A DNA stretch of 17,682 bases, taken from contig JAGHAD010000076.1 of the NCBI GenBank assembly GCA_021161685.1, forward strand, positions 1 through 17,682, in the 5' to 3' direction. Of the stretch, positions 10,831 through 17,682 are shown in pieces. A model generated the notes under the pieces. The model saw nothing but the letters and a program-made list of their open reading frames with translations. It was not told the origin of the DNA and made no database searches. Both the position numbers and the translations under genes were made by a program. Origin of the DNA: Thermoplasmata archaeon (GTDB lineage Archaea; Thermoplasmatota; E2; DHVEG-1; B18-G2). Position 1 is the first letter of the stretch, and every line of letters begins with the position of its first letter.

Positions 10831-13746
10831 TCACAGGTAAACTATGTATCCTGGCCATGCAAAGGGATCCTTTTCTATTCCTTTACTGTAAAAAATGGCT
10901 TTCACTCGGTATATTCCGATGGGTGGATGGAACGAGTATGAATAATAGCCATATGCATCCTTTGTGGTATCGATGCCCTCTCTATGGATAGACCTGATGA
11001 CCGTATCTATGACAAACTTTACCTCATCGATCTCTCCCCTAGGTTTTATCTTAACCATTAATGAGGGCGTTGTAACCACCGAGCAGCCGAGTACCGCAAG
11101 GAGGAGAGAAGGCTTTCTTTCAACAGAGCTGTACCAATATCCAATTTCCGGATAGTAAGAGAATGCCGTTGTCTTTGTCGATATCATCTTGAAGTCCCCG
11201 CCGACGTTTCCAGCTACATCCCACGCTTTAGCCTCTATCTTGTAACTTTCTCCAGATCCGACCGTGAATGTATAGACATATCTCTCTTCCCAGGTGAACC
11301 ATTCTTTCATCAGCTCATCATTGATGTAAATCGCAGCTCTAGCTATTCCGGAGCCTTCTTCATCAACGGTGAATTCTATGGTTACATCTCCCGGCTCAAC
11401 GATATCCTCCTTTGGCTTTGTTATATAAACCTTTGGAGGTCTTCCATCTATCTTTATGATCTTTTTCTTTGGATTTTCGGCATTTCCAGCTTTATCGACC
11501 GACCAGTACTCTATCTCATGCTCGCCGGTACCTCTAACTATGAAAGTGCATGGATTCTGTTTGCTGGAGTGCAGATCTCCATCTATACTGTAGTAAATGG
11601 TATCTACTCCACTTCCATTATCATATGCCCTAAGCTCCACCTCGACATAGGTTGTAAACCATCCATTCTCTCCATTTGGCTCTTCAGGATCAGTAAACAG
11701 CAGGGTCCATGGTGGTTCAGTATCTTCACCTATATATTCTATGCCCCACTTATCTATCCATGGGGTATCCGATGCGATATCCCTTGAAAGAACAGCCTTC
11801 AGTCTTATGTTGGTAACAGGTAGATCGGATATATCTCCGAGTCCGGTTTTTAGTACATTTCCAGAAGAATCCAGGACATAGAAAACTATGTTTCCAGAAG
11901 CATATCCATAGCTTGCATAGAACCTCTGCCATTTCTTAACATTGAGCTCCTCCACATCAAGTATCTTTGAATACAAGGCAGCTTCCGTTACAAGCTCCTT
12001 AACTTCTCCAAAGCTGTAGCTAACATCTGGAGAGCCAGTCGTTTTATAGATGTGCCACACGCTTCCAAATGCATCCGCATACTCGCTAGCTTGGTCTCTT
12101 TCATCTTCCCACACCGCAAATATCTTTCCATCATCTGATACCGCCAGGTTATTCCAATCTACATTCTCTGATGATCCATCAGATAGTGGTTGTTCCGATG
12201 TCATTACCAGCTTACCATTCTTGTTGTAAACGAGCTTTCCCCATAGTTCATCTCCCTTATCATAGGATACAAAGAACATCTTTTCAAGATATGGTACAAC
12301 ATCGGTTCTTATGTAATTGTTACCAGACTGTATCTTGAAGATACCCAAGGGCATGTTTCCATCCTGATCCAGAAATGCTCCCCACACGTTTCCTCTGTAT
12401 TTTCCAGCACTCAAATCGCCGTCATTCCATGTAACGAGATACTCGTCTGTATATGGATTGTAATTAACGGCAGGCCAAACATTGTCTCTATCTTCTGTAC
12501 CTACGACTATTGTTTTTGTCCAAACCTCTATACCATTTGGATCGAGTTTCGTAACCTTTATACCAAAAGGTCCATTCTCGCAATCATCGCCAAACTCATA
12601 TACAACCAAAAAGAATCCATTTTTGTCACCACATACCCATGGTTGTCCTTCATAGTTTGCGCCGCGTGTTATCTGAAATTCATCACTCAAAGGATTTCCA
12701 TTCCTGTCATAGAACCTTCCCCAGACGTTATAATTGTTAGGTCCTTCTCTTCTGTCCTCCCACACCACAAGATATCTCCCACTGCTGTAAGCAACGCATG
12801 CATCTTCCTGGATATCTGGCGCATCGCATATTGGCTCACTCAATGGAGTAACCTTCCCATCTGGAGTCACTATTGCTCCCTTGATATCTATTTCGAATCT
12901 CCTCGCCATATCGGCGGGATTTTCTTCCCAAACGACAAAGAACTTGTTACCATCTGAAGCTATGGAGGGATCTTCACCATGCCTTGACTTATCCACCATT
13001 ATCTCTATATCTGTATCAGTTTCCGGTGGAGGTTGTGGATCTTTTCCATCTGAGTTGTAGGTCCTTCCCCTTATATCGCTGTAGCTGGCTCTCTCCATGT
13101 AATAAGGACGATCCTCTGGACCGAGCCTCTCTTCCCATGCAACTAAAAATCTTCCTCCACCAAAAGCCACATCTGGGTCCCATGCTCCTTCCCTATAGTT
13201 CTTGTAGGATATCATTACATCGGGATCTGTCCTATCATCCCATTTAAAAACTATATCGAAGTTGCTGTTGCTCGGCGCATTCGGATCTCCATAGAACATG
13301 TAAACTACGCTCTCTCCACTCGGAAGCTCTGGAACGATTCTGATCCAAACATCGGCTTTGCAATCATCATAATCCCCAACCCAGTATTCCAAATCGTATA
13401 CCTTGTCATCATAAACATAAACGAAACGTAGGTCACTATAATCCGCCTGCATCTCCGGCTCGCGATGCACTTCTAATGGTAAAACGTATGCTTCCTTTGG
13501 AGGTCCAGTATTGTTAATGTGAATCTCTCTCATCTTTGGCCAAGGATAATACCATGCCTTGTAAGTGTTCTTCATGATCACTTTACTATCCTTTAGTTCT
13601 ATGTTGTATGACATCGCCCTGTCTATCTTGCTCCAGTCTAGGAAATCATCTTCCCAGTAGAATGTTCCATTCGCTATAATAAATGTGCTTGGAATGAGCA
13701 AAGCTATCGATACTGCAATTGCTCCATATCTCAAACATCTAACCAC
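10831..13746 (-). CDS. Large secreted multidomain protein: DUF2341, seven-bladed propeller, Ig-like domains
   Basis: This 971-aa exported protein has a signal peptide at about 8-25. Residues about 60-165 match DUF2341 (VWIRIVPELPSGESVVYMFYG with a following DPN). Seven repeats of an F/Y-x-V-x-W/Y-E/D strand begin at residues 200, 269, 325, 378, 436, 491 and 542, each followed by an acidic or glycine loop. This is the pattern of a seven-bladed beta-propeller. Then come a beta-sandwich segment (about 575-672), an OmpL47/Ig-like domain (about 674-768, IYYSIDGD and SVDKAGNAENP), a second Ig-like domain (769-858) and a final domain (860-971) homologous to the N-terminal domain of the upstream gene product. 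There is no C-terminal anchor. The GTG start follows GGAGGTG, which overlaps the upstream stop, so translation is probably coupled. It is probably a binding or structural surface protein; no enzyme motif is seen. Confidence 0.85.
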   Translation of the reverse strand: MVRCLRYGAIAVSIALLIPSTFIIANGTFYWEDDFLDWSKIDRAMSYNIELKDSKVIMKNTYKAWYYPWPKMREIHINNTGPPKEAYVLPLEVHREPEMQADYSDLRFVYVYDDKVYDLEYWVGDYDDCKADVWIRIVPELPSGESVVYMFYGDPNAPSNSNFDIVFKWDDRTDPDVMISYKNYREGAWDPDVAFGGGRFLVAWEERLGPEDRPYYMERASYSDIRGRTYNSDGKDPQPPPETDTDIEIMVDKSRHGEDPSIASDGNKFFVVWEENPADMARRFEIDIKGAIVTPDGKVTPLSEPICDAPDIQEDACVAYSSGRYLVVWEDRREGPNNYNVWGRFYDRNGNPLSDEFQITRGANYEGQPWVCGDKNGFFLVVYEFGDDCENGPFGIKVTKLDPNGIEVWTKTIVVGTEDRDNVWPAVNYNPYTDEYLVTWNDGDLSAGKYRGNVWGAFLDQDGNMPLGIFKIQSGNNYIRTDVVPYLEKMFFVSYDKGDELWGKLVYNKNGKLVMTSEQPLSDGSSENVDWNNLAVSDDGKIFAVWEDERDQASEYADAFGSVWHIYKTTGSPDVSYSFGEVKELVTEAALYSKILDVEELNVKKWQRFYASYGYASGNIVFYVLDSSGNVLKTGLGDISDLPVTNIRLKAVLSRDIASDTPWIDKWGIEYIGEDTEPPWTLLFTDPEEPNGENGWFTTYVEVELRAYDNGSGVDTIYYSIDGDLHSSKQNPCTFIVRGTGEHEIEYWSVDKAGNAENPKKKIIKIDGRPPKVYITKPKEDIVEPGDVTIEFTVDEEGSGIARAAIYINDELMKEWFTWEERYVYTFTVGSGESYKIEAKAWDVAGNVGGDFKMISTKTTAFSYYPEIGYWYSSVERKPSLLLAVLGCSVVTTPSLMVKIKPRGEIDEVKFVIDTVIRSIHREGIDTTKDAYGYYSYSFHPPIGIYRVKAIFYSKGIEKDPFAWPGYIVYL

Positions 13747-13752
13747 TCACAC

Positions 13753-13759
13753 CACCTCC
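13753..13759 (-). promoter_or_regulatory. Ribosome-binding site overlapping the upstream stop codon
   Basis: On the minus strand the TAG stop of the PKD-protein gene runs straight into GGAGGTG, which sits 6 nt before the GTG start at 13746. This layout implies translational coupling of the two surface-protein genes and supports the GTG start. Confidence 0.7.
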
Positions 13760-16323
13760 TATGGATATGGGACGGGATACCATTCTCCCTTCCATAATAT
13801 CTTGATATCCCAATCTCCAGGTAGAGGCTTATCTCCAAGAATCCATATCCTTGGGACTCTACCGTTTACGGTATCCCACATTATGGTTCGAGTAATATTG
13901 ATGAAGTTTCTTCCAACAAGACTACAGCCGTACTGGTAGTTGTATGACGCATCTGGATCATATTGCAGGGTAAAGTTGAACTCTCTACCAACTGCTTTTC
14001 CAAATGTATAGATGGTTAGATGACCCGTCTCATCGAATTCCCAGTCGAGCTTCAGTTTTCTGTCACCATAAAGCGATATGTAGCCATAAATCTTGAAATC
14101 AGGGCTATCCATATCGATAAAGGTGACGTTCAGATCTTTGTTGAGTTGTAATAGCAGTTCTCCTCCCTCTCCAAGTTCCCATGTTCCAGTAACATTGAAT
14201 GTGATATCCTCGTAATCCACCATAATAAAAGCATCTACCAGCGCATCAACCTCTCCCCTGAAACTGAGCTTCTTGAAGATGCCGGCATGCCTGTTCCATT
14301 CCAGAGCGAAATCGTCGGTTGCAATATCCTTGACATCGATCTTAACGGCCACATGATCCTCCTTTGTTGCCAAAAAGCTTAAGCCAAACATCTTTTTACC
14401 TTCGGTATCCAAACCAACCTCTCCATATCCATCTCCAACTGGTAGATCATAAAACGCTTTGGCATGTCCATCTTTTATCCTTAACGTTCCTTCGAGTCTC
14501 CATCCTTTAAAATTAACCGGAACGGTAATGGTAGTTGTTAATCCAGAGTATTTCTCCAGCTCTATGTAACCTCTTGCACCTGGGATATCAATAAATCCAG
14601 CTACGTATAAATTCTTTGGAAAGTTTGTAACCTTAATGAAAGGCTCTTCACTTCCTTTCAGGTACAAGCTCGCCTCATCTAGGTTATCTGACATTTTCAA
14701 GTCGATGAATCCCAATGCCCTTCCAGCTATCAAGCTTGCGTTGAGTCCCCACCTTGCTTCGATCCTCTCCGGTATACCTTTAAGCTCCAATCTGATTACG
14801 TTACCATTCTGGGTCGAGTTAACCAAATAGGTTACATCATATGATCTATCCGCTTCATAAACAAAAGATCTCTCTCCCAAAAATGTGAGGTCAAACTTCA
14901 TGTAGCTTGGTAAAGGATCTAGGATGAAGGACTGAGCGAAATCCTCGAAGAGCGTGCCCTTAGATGAAAGCTCCACGCTCGTTCTTAAGCCGGGCGTTTC
15001 TTCAAAGTAGTATTCTATCTTCCCCTCCCTTGGTACGGATGTTATCGTCACCTCTGGAGCGGGATCAATCTTTAATGTTATGACCCTGTGGAAAGCTTCA
15101 TTACCATTGGAATCAACGGTAAGTAAACTAGCCTCGTAGGTTAGGGGTACCGGATTTCCACCATAGAGATAAGGATCTATCTTCATTCTGAGGATGCCCG
15201 GATCTCTTAGACTTTCCTTTCCGAAGTAGAACCATGTCCCAACGTTATGAGGTCCTTCTCCTCCTCCATCGTATCTGTAGGTAACCCTCGCTGAGAAGTA
15301 CTCGGCAGATAATTCAGCTTCCTCGCTCTCTAGTAGAGAGTAAGGAAATCTAAACTCCAGGGATACTTCAAAATCTTTTGTCAGGTCGGTCGATTCATCT
15401 ATCGATACAATGAAGTCTGTCAGTATCGCCTCTATATCTCTTATCTTTGTCTTTGCAAAATCAAGCCTTACCTCAGTATCATCCTCCCTCTGCATGGTTA
15501 ACTTGTATATCCTGTGGGTTGGAGAATGATACAGCATGTTAATGAAATCGTCAACATCTATATCCAACTTAACCTCATCCTCCTTTCCTTCATATTTGGT
15601 CACTATCCACACTCCAAGATCGTAGTCCACAACGGTTATCCTCTTGCTGGCAAAGCTCTTTTCGCCTTCGTCATCAATAACTTCTAGAGTAACCACGTAT
15701 TTTCCAGGCTTGCTGTAAGTATGAGATGGATTCATCTCATCGGAACTGCTACCATCACCAAATTCCCAATGATAACTTACTATGTCACCTCCATCTGGAT
15801 CATAGCTTTGCGATCCATCAAAGTGCACTTCCTTGCCTTGCCATACCACTTTAGGGGCTTCTATGACTGCTACTGGCTTTTTCTTCATACACCCTCCAAA
15901 CATTAGAAAGATGACACCATCTACCGTTTCTCTTGATATCTCCTTGCCATTATAATACGCTATGGCAACGATCTTGTAGCCATGCGAGGGTAGGTAGAAT
16001 CTGCAGTTGAATTTTTCCCTTCCATCAAATGTTTTTTCATCAACTAGAGAGCTACCACTGTATACCAAAATGCTCACCTTATCTACGTCACCTTTTGTTT
16101 CCACCCCAACTTTAAGGCATGAATCTATGACAAGGGATTTCCCTAGGATTGAAAGAAGAACGCTAGGTCTACCGGTGGTATCAAAGAAGTACAGCTTTCC
16201 AGCTTCAGGGTATTTTATATCTACAACTTTCTGCTCTTCATGGATAGAGGTAGATACTAGGCATAGCAATACAGGTACGCTAACAATTAGCAAACAATAT
16301 CTTCTAAGGATTAATCCTTTCAA
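13759..16323 (-). CDS. Secreted PKD-domain, beta-rich surface protein
   Basis: This is an exported protein of about 854 aa. After a signal peptide comes a domain (about 36-140) that is homologous to the last domain of the downstream protein and begins with IKYPEAGKLYFF. A classic PKD domain follows (about 150-232: FDGSQSYDPDG, YHWEFGDGSSS, HTYSKPGKYVVTLEV). The remaining roughly 600 residues match nothing I recognise. They are dense in alternating beta-strand sequence, almost free of cysteine, and may form a long beta-sheet stack. There is no C-terminal membrane anchor. The frame opens at a TTG at 16341, but a GGAGGTG site at 16333-16339 and a TATA box at 16374-16386 place translation downstream, so I chose TTG 16323. 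GTG 16335 and TTG 16341 remain possible. It is the first gene of a two-gene operon. Confidence 0.78.
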   Translation of the reverse strand: MKGLILRRYCLLIVSVPVLLCLVSTSIHEEQKVVDIKYPEAGKLYFFDTTGRPSVLLSILGKSLVIDSCLKVGVETKGDVDKVSILVYSGSSLVDEKTFDGREKFNCRFYLPSHGYKIVAIAYYNGKEISRETVDGVIFLMFGGCMKKKPVAVIEAPKVVWQGKEVHFDGSQSYDPDGGDIVSYHWEFGDGSSSDEMNPSHTYSKPGKYVVTLEVIDDEGEKSFASKRITVVDYDLGVWIVTKYEGKEDEVKLDIDVDDFINMLYHSPTHRIYKLTMQREDDTEVRLDFAKTKIRDIEAILTDFIVSIDESTDLTKDFEVSLEFRFPYSLLESEEAELSAEYFSARVTYRYDGGGEGPHNVGTWFYFGKESLRDPGILRMKIDPYLYGGNPVPLTYEASLLTVDSNGNEAFHRVITLKIDPAPEVTITSVPREGKIEYYFEETPGLRTSVELSSKGTLFEDFAQSFILDPLPSYMKFDLTFLGERSFVYEADRSYDVTYLVNSTQNGNVIRLELKGIPERIEARWGLNASLIAGRALGFIDLKMSDNLDEASLYLKGSEEPFIKVTNFPKNLYVAGFIDIPGARGYIELEKYSGLTTTITVPVNFKGWRLEGTLRIKDGHAKAFYDLPVGDGYGEVGLDTEGKKMFGLSFLATKEDHVAVKIDVKDIATDDFALEWNRHAGIFKKLSFRGEVDALVDAFIMVDYEDITFNVTGTWELGEGGELLLQLNKDLNVTFIDMDSPDFKIYGYISLYGDRKLKLDWEFDETGHLTIYTFGKAVGREFNFTLQYDPDASYNYQYGCSLVGRNFINITRTIMWDTVNGRVPRIWILGDKPLPGDWDIKILWKGEWYPVPYP

Positions 16324-16373
16324 TCTCCTTTCCACCTCCAAAGAGTTTCCTGTTAAAATCCATAAAACTTCTT

Positions 16374-16386: not shown

Positions 16387-16440
16387 GTGGTCGATAGCAG
16401 TTTCTGAAATTGTCTATTTACTCCTTGTTTTGAACTGAAT

Positions 16441-16454
16441 CGAAAGTTATATAA
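16441..16454 (+). promoter_or_regulatory. BRE/TATA promoter of the cdrS-ftsZ operon
   Basis: CGAAAG (BRE-like) followed by TTATATAA gives one of the best promoter matches in the window. The predicted start is at about 16476-16478, which coincides with the first base of the long hairpin. Confidence 0.65.
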
Positions 16455-16477
16455 GCCGATGTAATATTCGGATTAGC

Positions 16478-16544
16478 GTCAGACAAATGATGCCGTTGTC
16501 GTTCGTCTGTATGACGAACGACGGCTGAGCATCATACGTCTGAC
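16478..16544 (+). promoter_or_regulatory. Long hairpin in the 5' leader of the cdrS-ftsZ mRNA
   Basis: Three nested perfect stems are visible. GTCAGAC (16478-16484) pairs with GTCTGAC (16538-16544). ATGATGC (16487-16493) pairs with GCATCAT (16529-16535). GTCGTTCG (16498-16505) pairs with CGAACGAC (16515-16522) around a 9-nt loop. The element starts at the predicted transcription start and ends just before the GGTGGTGAGGAG ribosome-binding region. It may be an RNA structure controlling stability or translation, or a DNA operator, since CGTCTG-type half-sites recur in it. No known riboswitch class is recognised. Confidence 0.65.
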
Positions 16545-16568
16545 ATACAGGTGGTGAGGAGAAAAAAT

Positions 16569-16805
16569 ATGGAAACCGCCGAAACGACGAGACTAACAAT
16601 AAGGTTGCCGACAAGATATGTGCATTTGATAGATACATTCATAAGGCTCGGTGAATTCTCATCGAGGTCAGAGGTAATGCGCCGTGCCCTCATCGATTTC
16701 GTTGCCAACTACGCGAACGACCTACTCGAAAAGGCAGATAAGCTCAAGAAGATACAGGAGCTGGAGCAGGCGGTTTCCGTGCTAGATTCACTTGCGAAAA
16801 GATAA
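16569..16805 (+). CDS. cdrS: Ribbon-helix-helix regulator of cell division (CdrS-like)
   Basis: This 78-aa protein has a ribbon-helix-helix (CopG/MetJ-type) fold. The DNA-contacting strand TRLTIRLP (about 7-14) is followed by a helix ([12 protein letters not shown]), a turn and a second helix ([17 protein letters not shown]). A C-terminal extension predicted to be helical follows ([21 protein letters not shown]), possibly for oligomerisation. A gene of this kind directly upstream of ftsZ2 has been characterised in haloarchaea as CdrS, a regulator of ftsZ2 and division; assignment here rests on fold and synteny. The frame opens at GTG 16551, but that codon lies within the GGTGGTGAGGAG ribosome-binding site, so the ATG at 16569, 7 nt after it, is preferred. 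Autoregulation through the dyad-rich leader at 16478-16544 is plausible (inference). Confidence 0.88.
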
Positions 16806-16828
16806 CCCCAAACCTAGGAGGGGATGGG

Positions 16829-16882
16829 ATGCCGAAGGGTGCTCCCCCGGCACCCTTCACAACTACCAGGAGGATAATTTGA
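16829..16882 (+). CDS. Possible 17-aa leader peptide before ftsZ
   Basis: A 17-codon ORF ([17 protein letters not shown]) begins at an ATG 7 nt after AGGAGG (16816-16821). It ends at a TGA whose last base is the A of the ftsZ ATG (TGATG junction). Position, ribosome-binding site and stop-start overlap suggest translational coupling to ftsZ. The ORF contains the perfect hairpin at 16834-16858. It could be a regulatory leader peptide or chance within a non-coding spacer. An alternative 17-codon frame from ATG 16824 has its ribosome-binding site too close. Confidence 0.35.
16834..16858 (+). promoter_or_regulatory. Perfect 9-bp hairpin between cdrS and ftsZ
   Basis: GAAGGGTGC and GCACCCTTC form a 9-bp stem around the 7-nt loop TCCCCCG. 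It is GC-rich, has no following T-run and lies 10 nt before the ftsZ ribosome-binding site. It is more likely a translation or mRNA-processing element than a terminator. Confidence 0.6.
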
Positions 16883-17682
16883 TGGTTGGAAAGAAGGGAA
16901 TGGGTGATAGCCTAGTTGCTAATGCTATAAAACACTGGGAGCAAGAGGAGAGAAAGCTGAGAGAGAAAGAGGGCGAACTGTTCGGTGAACCTCAGATTGT
17001 TATTGTAGGTTGCGGTGGTGCAGGTGGTAATACGATAACGAGATTACACAAGTTGGGTGTAAAGGGAGCAAAGACGATAGCTATAAACACCGACAAGCAA
17101 GCACTGGATTTGGTTGAGGCAGATGAGAAACTACTCATAGGGAAAACCATAACAAGGGGACTTGGAGCTGGAGGTTATCCAGAGGTGGCAGAGAGATGCG
17201 CCAGGGAGGCGAGTAGGGAGATAGAAGAGTTGTTGAAAGGAGCTGATTTAGTTTTTATAACAGCTGGAATGGGAGGCGGAACCGGAACCGGAGCATCCCC
17301 AGTAGTTGCGGAGATCGCAAAAAAGCAAAATGCAATCGTTACAGCAATGGTTTCAACTCCTTTCAATGTTGAGAGAGCACGCCTCATAAAAGCTGATGAA
17401 GGACTCGATAAACTCAGAAAAAAGGCAGACAGCGTCGTTGTACTTGATAATAACAGATTACTGGAATTCGTTCCAAATCTTCCAATCAATCAGGCTTTTT
17501 CTGTGATGGATCAGTTAATAGCAGAGACCGTGAAAGGGATAGCTGAGACAATAACTCTTCCTTCCCTGATCAATCTAGATTACGCGGACATGAAGACGAT
17601 AATGGAATCGGGTGGACTCTCTGTCATGCTATGGGGAGAGGCTGAGATGGATGCAGGGGTAGAAGCCATAGTAAATGAAACC
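16882..17682 (+). CDS. ftsZ2: Cell division GTPase FtsZ (FtsZ2-type), 3' end missing
   Basis: The first 267 residues of a tubulin-like GTPase that polymerises into the division ring are present; the gene runs off the window. GTP-binding elements are GCGGAGGN (43-50), the tubulin signature [11 protein letters not shown] (128-138), [10 protein letters not shown] (158-167) and [14 protein letters not shown] (188-201). The T7 catalytic loop is NLDYADM (231-237). The stretch from FSVMDQ through ETVKGI to [16 protein letters not shown] resembles archaeal FtsZ2 more than FtsZ1 (judged from memory of haloarchaeal proteins). AGGAGGAT (16868-16875) lies 6 nt before the ATG and fixes the start. An N-terminal charged extension (about 1-36) precedes the GTPase domain. 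The gene is co-transcribed with the upstream RHH gene. Confidence 0.95.

Follow-up and report, generated by a model that had tools for sequence, protein, structure and literature searches.

The cdrS-ftsZ operon of Thermoplasmatota is probably under dual control, by an operator for an RHH protein and by a trans-acting antisense small RNA (sRNA) that would set how much FtsZ is made relative to CdrS; other messages with a GGGATGCAC box, FtsZ-family paralogues included, may be further targets of the core of this RNA. The larger result is the predicted antisense RNA on ftsZ, which is stronger than the finding on the hairpin at the promoter of the operon. Control of division-protein levels in archaea that use FtsZ is known mainly from haloarchaea. 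If true, the sRNA would represent a phylum-wide archaeal base-pairing RNA against a tubulin homologue, with a target site that changes together with it, and RNA control of an archaeal cytoskeletal gene would be open to direct test. The operator, if true, would link Thermoplasmatota with methanogens and their relatives through a single half-site grammar at the same promoter, and it predicts autorepression.

The cdrS-ftsZ operon and the hairpin at its promoter

The window, by which we mean the whole stretch of DNA that was analysed, comprises 17,682 nt from a Thermoplasmata archaeon (contig JAGHAD010000076.1, GCA_021161685.1), and its own genome is a draft of 157 contigs that is 88% complete. 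The features of the operon are as follows.

16441-16454, + strand: BRE-like CGAAAG and TATA TTATATAA of cdrS-ftsZ (from sequence)
16478-16544, + strand: hairpin, interpreted as an RHH operator in inverted-repeat form that covers the predicted transcription start (from fold, conservation, half-site spacing and single copy)
16478-16484, no strand assigned: GTCAGAC, full GTCnGAC box 1 (from sequence)
16498-16522, no strand assigned: four inner half-sites, GTC at 16498 and 16505, GAC at 16513 and 16520 (positions in sequence)
16538-16544, no strand assigned: GTCTGAC, full GTCnGAC box 2 (from sequence), which the pattern scan of the own genome also returned as second arm
16569-16805, + strand: cdrS, RHH protein of 78 aa (Pfam RHH_1, NCBIfam search)
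16812-16878, + strand: element 2, conserved structured region 5' of ftsZ and predicted sRNA target (model R1, 44.4 bits)
16816-16832, + strand: box A, AGGAGGGGATGGGATGC, complementary to the loop of the relatives' sRNA (sequence, alignment)
16834-16858, + strand: stem P2 between the boxes, 16834-16842 with 16850-16858 (fold, covariation)
16860-16869, + strand: box B, CAACTACCAG, complementary to the 5' portion of the relatives' sRNA (sequence, alignment)
16869-16873, + strand: GGAGG, Shine-Dalgarno of ftsZ, abutting box B (from sequence)
16882-17682, + strand: ftsZ, running past the end of the window (TIGR00065 above cut-off)

The gene directly downstream of the hairpin, in the same operon, encodes a protein with a Pfam RHH_1 domain (E 2.7e-6). 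It scores 25.1 bits against the haloarchaeal CdrS equivalog of NCBIfam (NF058555), far below the cut-off of 100; the name CdrS denotes here the gene that adjoins ftsZ and not membership in that equivalog. A single CdrS-like match is present in the own genome; 48 of 59 related genomes, and 43 of 52 from the order, contain a cdrS homologue. In 92 of 98 CdrS loci the RHH strand has the form R-x-T-x-R, and in RHH proteins such residues face DNA. The nearest named relatives of the FtsZ protein are those of Thermoplasmatota MAGs. Upstream of the operon, two large divergent genes occupy 10831-16341 on the minus strand; one product (860 aa) contains a PKD domain, the other (971 aa) DUF2341 and Big_7. 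Among known Rfam RNAs, the window matched only tRNA, with one tRNA gene at 97-170 on the minus strand as its sole match, and 16430-16920 gave matches at chance level.

The first-pass annotation had described nested perfect stems of 7, 7 and 8 bp over 67 nt, beginning 27 nt past the centre of a BRE/TATA element and leading into the cdrS ribosome-binding site. The sequence bears out each of these points, and the fold is even stronger than was described: 16478-16544 forms 28 pairs with a minimum free energy of -41.6 kcal/mol against a mean of -17.2 in 200 dinucleotide shuffles (z -8.5), none of which equals it. The outer stem of 7 bp pairs 16478-16484 with 16538-16544 and encloses a middle stem of 7 bp, one isolated pair and an inner stem of 13 pairs, two of which are G.U. 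When 67-nt stretches of both strands were scanned in 5-nt steps, the hairpin ranked as the most stable place in the window. The BRE-like CGAAAG occupies 16441-16446 and the TATA element 16447-16454; the distance from TATA centre to hairpin is 27 nt in the window and 25-33 nt in those relatives in which a simple pattern picked up the nearest TATA-like string. The ribosome-binding site GAGGAG and the ATG of cdrS at 16569 follow 3' of the hairpin. Transcription of cdrS-ftsZ is predicted to start at the hairpin, and the transcript would begin with this structure because the half-sites are arranged as an inverted repeat.

The hairpin is present once in the draft genome by BLAST. A trans-encoded partner for it was set aside, as a scan of the own genome with the 5' hairpin string returned one exact copy, namely its own second arm, while two mismatches gave 13 places against 5 for a reversed-pattern control. 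A reading as a sigma-70 promoter or intrinsic terminator was likewise rejected, with one match for either, where shuffles gave 1.0 and 0.3, respectively.

A predicted RHH operator and a possible RNA role

The hairpin site appears to be an operator composed of several half-sites, with the RHH protein CdrS as its most likely binder. We read it in this manner because the string is conserved, because the boxes repeat at 11 bp, because CdrS carries the R-x-T-x-R strand and because CdrL binds upstream of cdrS-ftsZ2 in a haloarchaeon. GTC[ATG]GAC lies 3' of the promoter in all 63 Thermoplasmatota cdrS-ftsZ leader copies that are readable in full (49 + 14), mostly inside GTCAGACAAAnGATGTCnTTTGTC; these copies include many same-species duplicates, with 15 identical pairs. 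The leader counts omit the contig-truncated L041, L125 and L127, loci without a cdrS match (including L130), and the RHH paralogues L122, L123 and L131, in which the string is absent and the stretch examined holds neither ftsZ nor element 2. The 33 distinct Thermoplasmatota leaders all agree at 11 positions, of which 10 fall within the first 23, and the 3' half is variable. GTC and GAC together occur 280 times in these leaders against 124 in shuffles, GTC is followed by GAC at a spacing of 4 in 45 instances against 0.6 expected, and same-strand spacings are enriched at 7, 11, 14, 21, 22, 28, 33 and some others. The exact string occurs as a single copy in the own genome, which fits the expectation for an autoregulatory site.

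The same half-sites recur in a group of 34 leaders from methanogens, ANME archaea, Archaeoglobi and relatives, with which L073, a Thermoplasmatales MAG with GTCGGAC, was pooled for the spacing, strand-fold and G.T/A.C counts. Same-strand spacings of 11, 22 and 33 occur here 106, 93 and 78 times against 1.7-1.8, and a GTC-to-GAC spacing of 4 occurs 75 times against 1.0. In the cdrS leaders of methanogens and relatives (L054-L110), tandem palindromic GTCnGAC boxes with an 11-bp step lie between promoter and cdrS, so that the array places one box on each helical turn. Peaks at 11, 22 and 33 are absent from 13 haloarchaeal leaders, in which spacings of 21 and 26 were seen instead.

MetJ and Arc represent multi-site RHH operators, with short repeated half-sites that are read by RHH dimers. 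The predicted operator likewise resembles that of the omega repressor, with short half-sites, tandem or inverted, that are read by RHH dimers. It differs from all three in the half-site itself, in the palindromic GTCnGAC boxes that follow one another every 11 bp in methanogens, and in the mixed 7/11-bp steps that the predicted operator of Thermoplasmatota would use. In haloarchaea, the RHH protein CdrL of Halobacterium binds upstream of cdrS-ftsZ2 (PMC7439475), while the 18 listed ChIP sites of Haloferax CdrS share a symmetric motif and include none at the cdrS promoter (PMC8406309). Given this list of sites and the presence of CdrL at the Halobacterium locus, the operator may be bound by an RHH protein other than CdrS. 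The gene pair is the same there and here, whereas at the present locus GTCnGAC sites form an inverted repeat across the predicted start, the genome has one CdrS-like match, and the 11-bp phasing of boxes in methanogen leaders is absent from haloarchaeal ones.

The first-pass annotation had offered an RHH operator or a 5' RNA element as readings of the hairpin and had proposed to look for compensatory changes. The former has gained from string conservation and from 11-bp GTCnGAC repeats at the same place in other archaea, with binding as its prediction, and it is the reading that we favour. That the hairpin acts mainly as RNA, either shielding the cdrS-ftsZ message as a stem-loop at its 5' end or adjusting the translation of cdrS, with conserved letters that are RNA letters, seems rather unlikely to us, although a part of the evidence leans toward it. 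Among 33 representatives, left after leaders with shared 8-mers had been collapsed in a set of 45, native arms paired better than swapped arms (-24.05 vs -18.3 kcal/mol, p 4e-5; p 3e-5 without the window, and p 0.02 on the minus strand), but 9 of the 33 showed no such advantage. The plus strand is more structured than the minus strand (median z -2.39 vs -1.57; z below -2 in 19 of 32 leaders vs 8 of 32), and haloarchaeal leaders lean the same way (z -3.24 vs -1.74, n=10); methanogen-group arrays, however, fold nearly equally on both strands (z -3.09 on plus, -2.86 on minus, n=34), which indicates that box arrays alone yield hairpins. In strand-neutral stems, G.T exceeds A.C by 88 to 52, a bias that shuffled leaders also show (337:276), and L126, from the window's class, retains a long hairpin with different letters.

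Compensatory change gives a similarly divided answer. For the structure of a relative, 76% of cells pair and double changes number 46, with 28 in shuffles, but the number of double-change pairs and of pair types, the measures least misled by relatedness, stay at shuffle level (287 and 227 of 500 shuffles reach them). The window's own pairs exceed shuffles by no measure, and RNAalifold found no consensus structure on the 33 leaders (0 pairs). Moreover, an RNA role does not require the 11-bp phasing. Partial support for a 5' RNA element comes from the preference for native arms and from a modest strand and G.U bias. We conclude that there is some RNA-level signal at the hairpin that a pure DNA site would not predict, and that an RNA role is possible; pairing seems to be partly kept in Thermoplasmatota, and the hairpin may shield the 5' end of the transcript. 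A chance or mobile palindrome without function is highly improbable. It would agree with a near-perfect form in the window that is not common to all relatives and with arms that diverge widely in their 3' half. However, the fold lies beyond every one of the 200 shuffles, and the conserved 5' string occurs at the same place in all relatives examined; the mobile form was set aside on the single copy in the genome.

A predicted antisense RNA against ftsZ

The clear RNA-level element of the operon is element 2, between cdrS and ftsZ, and not the hairpin. It is the second most stable place of the window in the 67-nt scan, and in 41 distinct sequences of relatives the boxes GGGATGGGATGC and AACTACCA are nearly invariant and flank a stem. 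The last base of box B in the window, 16869, is the first G of the ftsZ Shine-Dalgarno. Stem P2 has 98.5% of cells paired and 44 double changes against 9.5 in shuffles (reached by 0 of 500) in an alignment of 40 sequences that was model-fitted, i.e. fitted to the structure, and its covariation score of 0.264 falls to 0.089 or less when the stem is slid. The number of double-change pairs (6 vs 4.4, reached by 66 of 500 shuffles) and of pair types (14 vs 13.3) showed no excess in the same 40 sequences. A leader peptide in the gap between cdrS and ftsZ was set aside by eye, as insertions and deletions shift the reading frame. The covariance model R1, which was built from sequences that include the window's own (as L001), matches next to cdrS in 42 of 80 class genomes with E below 1e-8, all of them from the window's order.

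Many genomes also contain other R1 matches, about 46-55 nt long. On the opposite strand of these places, 18 of 20 fetched loci have a BRE/TATA-like promoter followed by a conserved RNA layout, typically GGAAGGA..GGCUGGUAGUUG..GAGUGCAUCCCAUCCCCUCCU..CCAGCC..UCCUUCC and then mostly a T-run. The sRNA model R2 was made from these 18 loci, with L181 (partly masked) and L184 (of a different kind) omitted. R2 matches 59 of the 80 class genomes at E<=1e-10 and 15 of the 17 genomes of family f7 at E<=0.004, in all 15 of which the layout was seen by eye; across the phylum it matches 114 of 243 genomes at E<=1e-4, including 56 outside the window's class. The sRNA loci are L166-L183, L187-L236 and L273-L292. 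Of 49 matches, 43 were checked, all in relatives: BRE-like letters precede 42 by a loose criterion, the median distance to the centre of the TATA-like element is 26 nt (range 6-41), and 39 have a T-run of at least 3. The terminal stem slightly favours its own partner (-23.38 vs -22.26 kcal/mol, p 8e-4). These features point to a separate gene with its own promoter and terminator in the relatives, as would be expected of a trans-encoded sRNA.

No Rfam match at the gathering score was found in 20 sRNA loci of relatives, and a literature search, with most subscription papers and preprints outside its reach, found no such RNA in this phylum. The target site is present in the window's own genome, in which no sRNA gene was found; as this draft is 88% complete, absence of the gene is not proven. 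Four other genomes of the window's family carry the sRNA gene in three cases and a fragment at a contig end in the fourth. Some genomes hold two or more copies of the gene, for example L173 and L176, both in G042.

The pairing of sRNA and ftsZ leader was assessed in 30 genomes, consisting of 21 of the 28 class genomes outside the order and 9 within it (G053, G058, G063, G067, G069, G074 and G077 were omitted). Perfect runs were used in place of duplex energies, since energies permit long loops. The longest perfect run averaged 17.2 nt with the native sRNA and 13.8 nt with foreign sRNAs (p 1.9e-5), and shuffled leaders gave a mean of 6.8 nt and a maximum of 11 in 1200; in family f7, which has a variable linker, the means were 20.3 and 15.9 nt (n=13, p 0.010). 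These and the other p values given here are optimistic because related sequences are not independent. Native runs that include the variable linker reach 33 nt in G066, 30 nt in G068 and 26 nt in G070, with further native runs of 21 nt in G073, 20 nt in G060 and G062, 19 nt in G061 and 18 nt in G079, the last a lineage-specific match. In G055, also of f7, the model found a diverged sRNA with a native run of 15 nt, and no second full copy of its variant box was found within that genome. At least one foreign sRNA outruns the native one in 12 of the 30 genomes. This is clearest in the window's order, whose boxes do not vary and in which foreign sRNAs match equally well or better.

In other classes, the match at the FtsZ leaders examined reaches 16 nt in G086 and 11-12 nt in G080, G091, G099 and G107, and is shorter in others; at cdrS-ftsZ it is short or absent in many genomes, and at the cut-off used no FtsZ match was found in 6 of 20 genomes (an ftsZ stretch of G117 was not counted, having an improper leader). 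Within the relatives tested, extended complementarity appears to have been kept through change in both partners, and we predict a trans-acting antisense sRNA of ftsZ.

It is possible, though quite improbable, that the boxes which element 2 has in common with the small-RNA loci represent a DNA motif, such as an initiator or regulator site, and that their antisense relation is incidental. Short GGATGGGATGCA boxes close to where four further genes of the own genome are likely to have their 5' ends (by eye, from weak model matches) would fit such a motif, as would GGGATGCA before several FtsZ-family paralogues of other classes, in matches of 8-11 nt that are singly within the chance range. A DNA motif is opposed by the lineage-specific letters beyond the box, which change jointly in both partners in the runs listed above for G066, G068, G070, G073 and G079, and by the make-up of the small-RNA locus, which has a hairpin with T-run and, at a median distance of 26 nt, a TATA-like element. 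The sRNA, as we prefer to read these loci, probably has further targets besides ftsZ, which we regard as a lead from sequence.

Proposed control of the operon and known counterparts

An RHH operator and an sRNA that act on one message appear to us a likely explanation of the data as a whole. An RHH protein, most likely CdrS, would occupy the GTCnGAC-type half-sites over the predicted start and, once bound, would block RNA polymerase, resulting in autorepression of cdrS-ftsZ. The message would start with the hairpin as an RNA copy of the DNA operator, possibly serving as a shield of its 5' end. For the second control, the RNA of about 70 nt predicted from relatives, if expressed and if present in the window's own species as well, would pair in the cell with the two boxes beside the ftsZ ribosome-binding site, and in the window's order stem P2 would bulge out between the paired boxes. 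Occlusion of this ribosome-binding site would yield less FtsZ relative to CdrS. Such a decrease is the most likely outcome, and an effect of opposite sign is possible.

Small RNAs that act on ftsZ mRNA have been described in bacteria, namely DicF of E. coli (PMC5069750), StfZ (PMC9628754) and DinR of Klebsiella, which covers the ribosome-binding site (PMC10907235). The likeness lies in ftsZ mRNA as target, which is predicted for the sRNA here. The three RNAs are bacterial and, as far as known, unrelated in sequence to that of Thermoplasmatota; unlike them, the present candidate is a stand-alone gene with an archaeal promoter and with target boxes between cdrS and ftsZ. Among archaea, sRNA162 of Methanosarcina mazei is reported to have cis- and trans-encoded mRNA targets, one of which is a bicistronic message for a transcription factor (PMC3510493). 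It belongs to a different lineage and has a different target, and the complementarity of the Thermoplasmatota candidate has changed jointly in both partners among relatives. We do not claim membership of the candidate in the RNA families of DinR, DicF or sRNA162.

Several box-like sequences were seen away from the operon. The own-genome boxes of the GGATGGGATGCA type, which may be further sRNA targets, lie in L323 (533), L324 (576), L325 (567) and L164 (1506, minus strand), and one of the associated open reading frames looks PAS-like by eye. GGGATGCA(C) lies shortly 5' of FtsZ-family paralogues in L308, L313, L315, L316, L317, L319 and L321. Finally, L184 (G005) carries at 1147-1222 on the minus strand a box-A-like hairpin, GAGGGGGATGGGATGCGCCCCTC, at a locus that is neither cdrS-ftsZ nor the usual sRNA gene.
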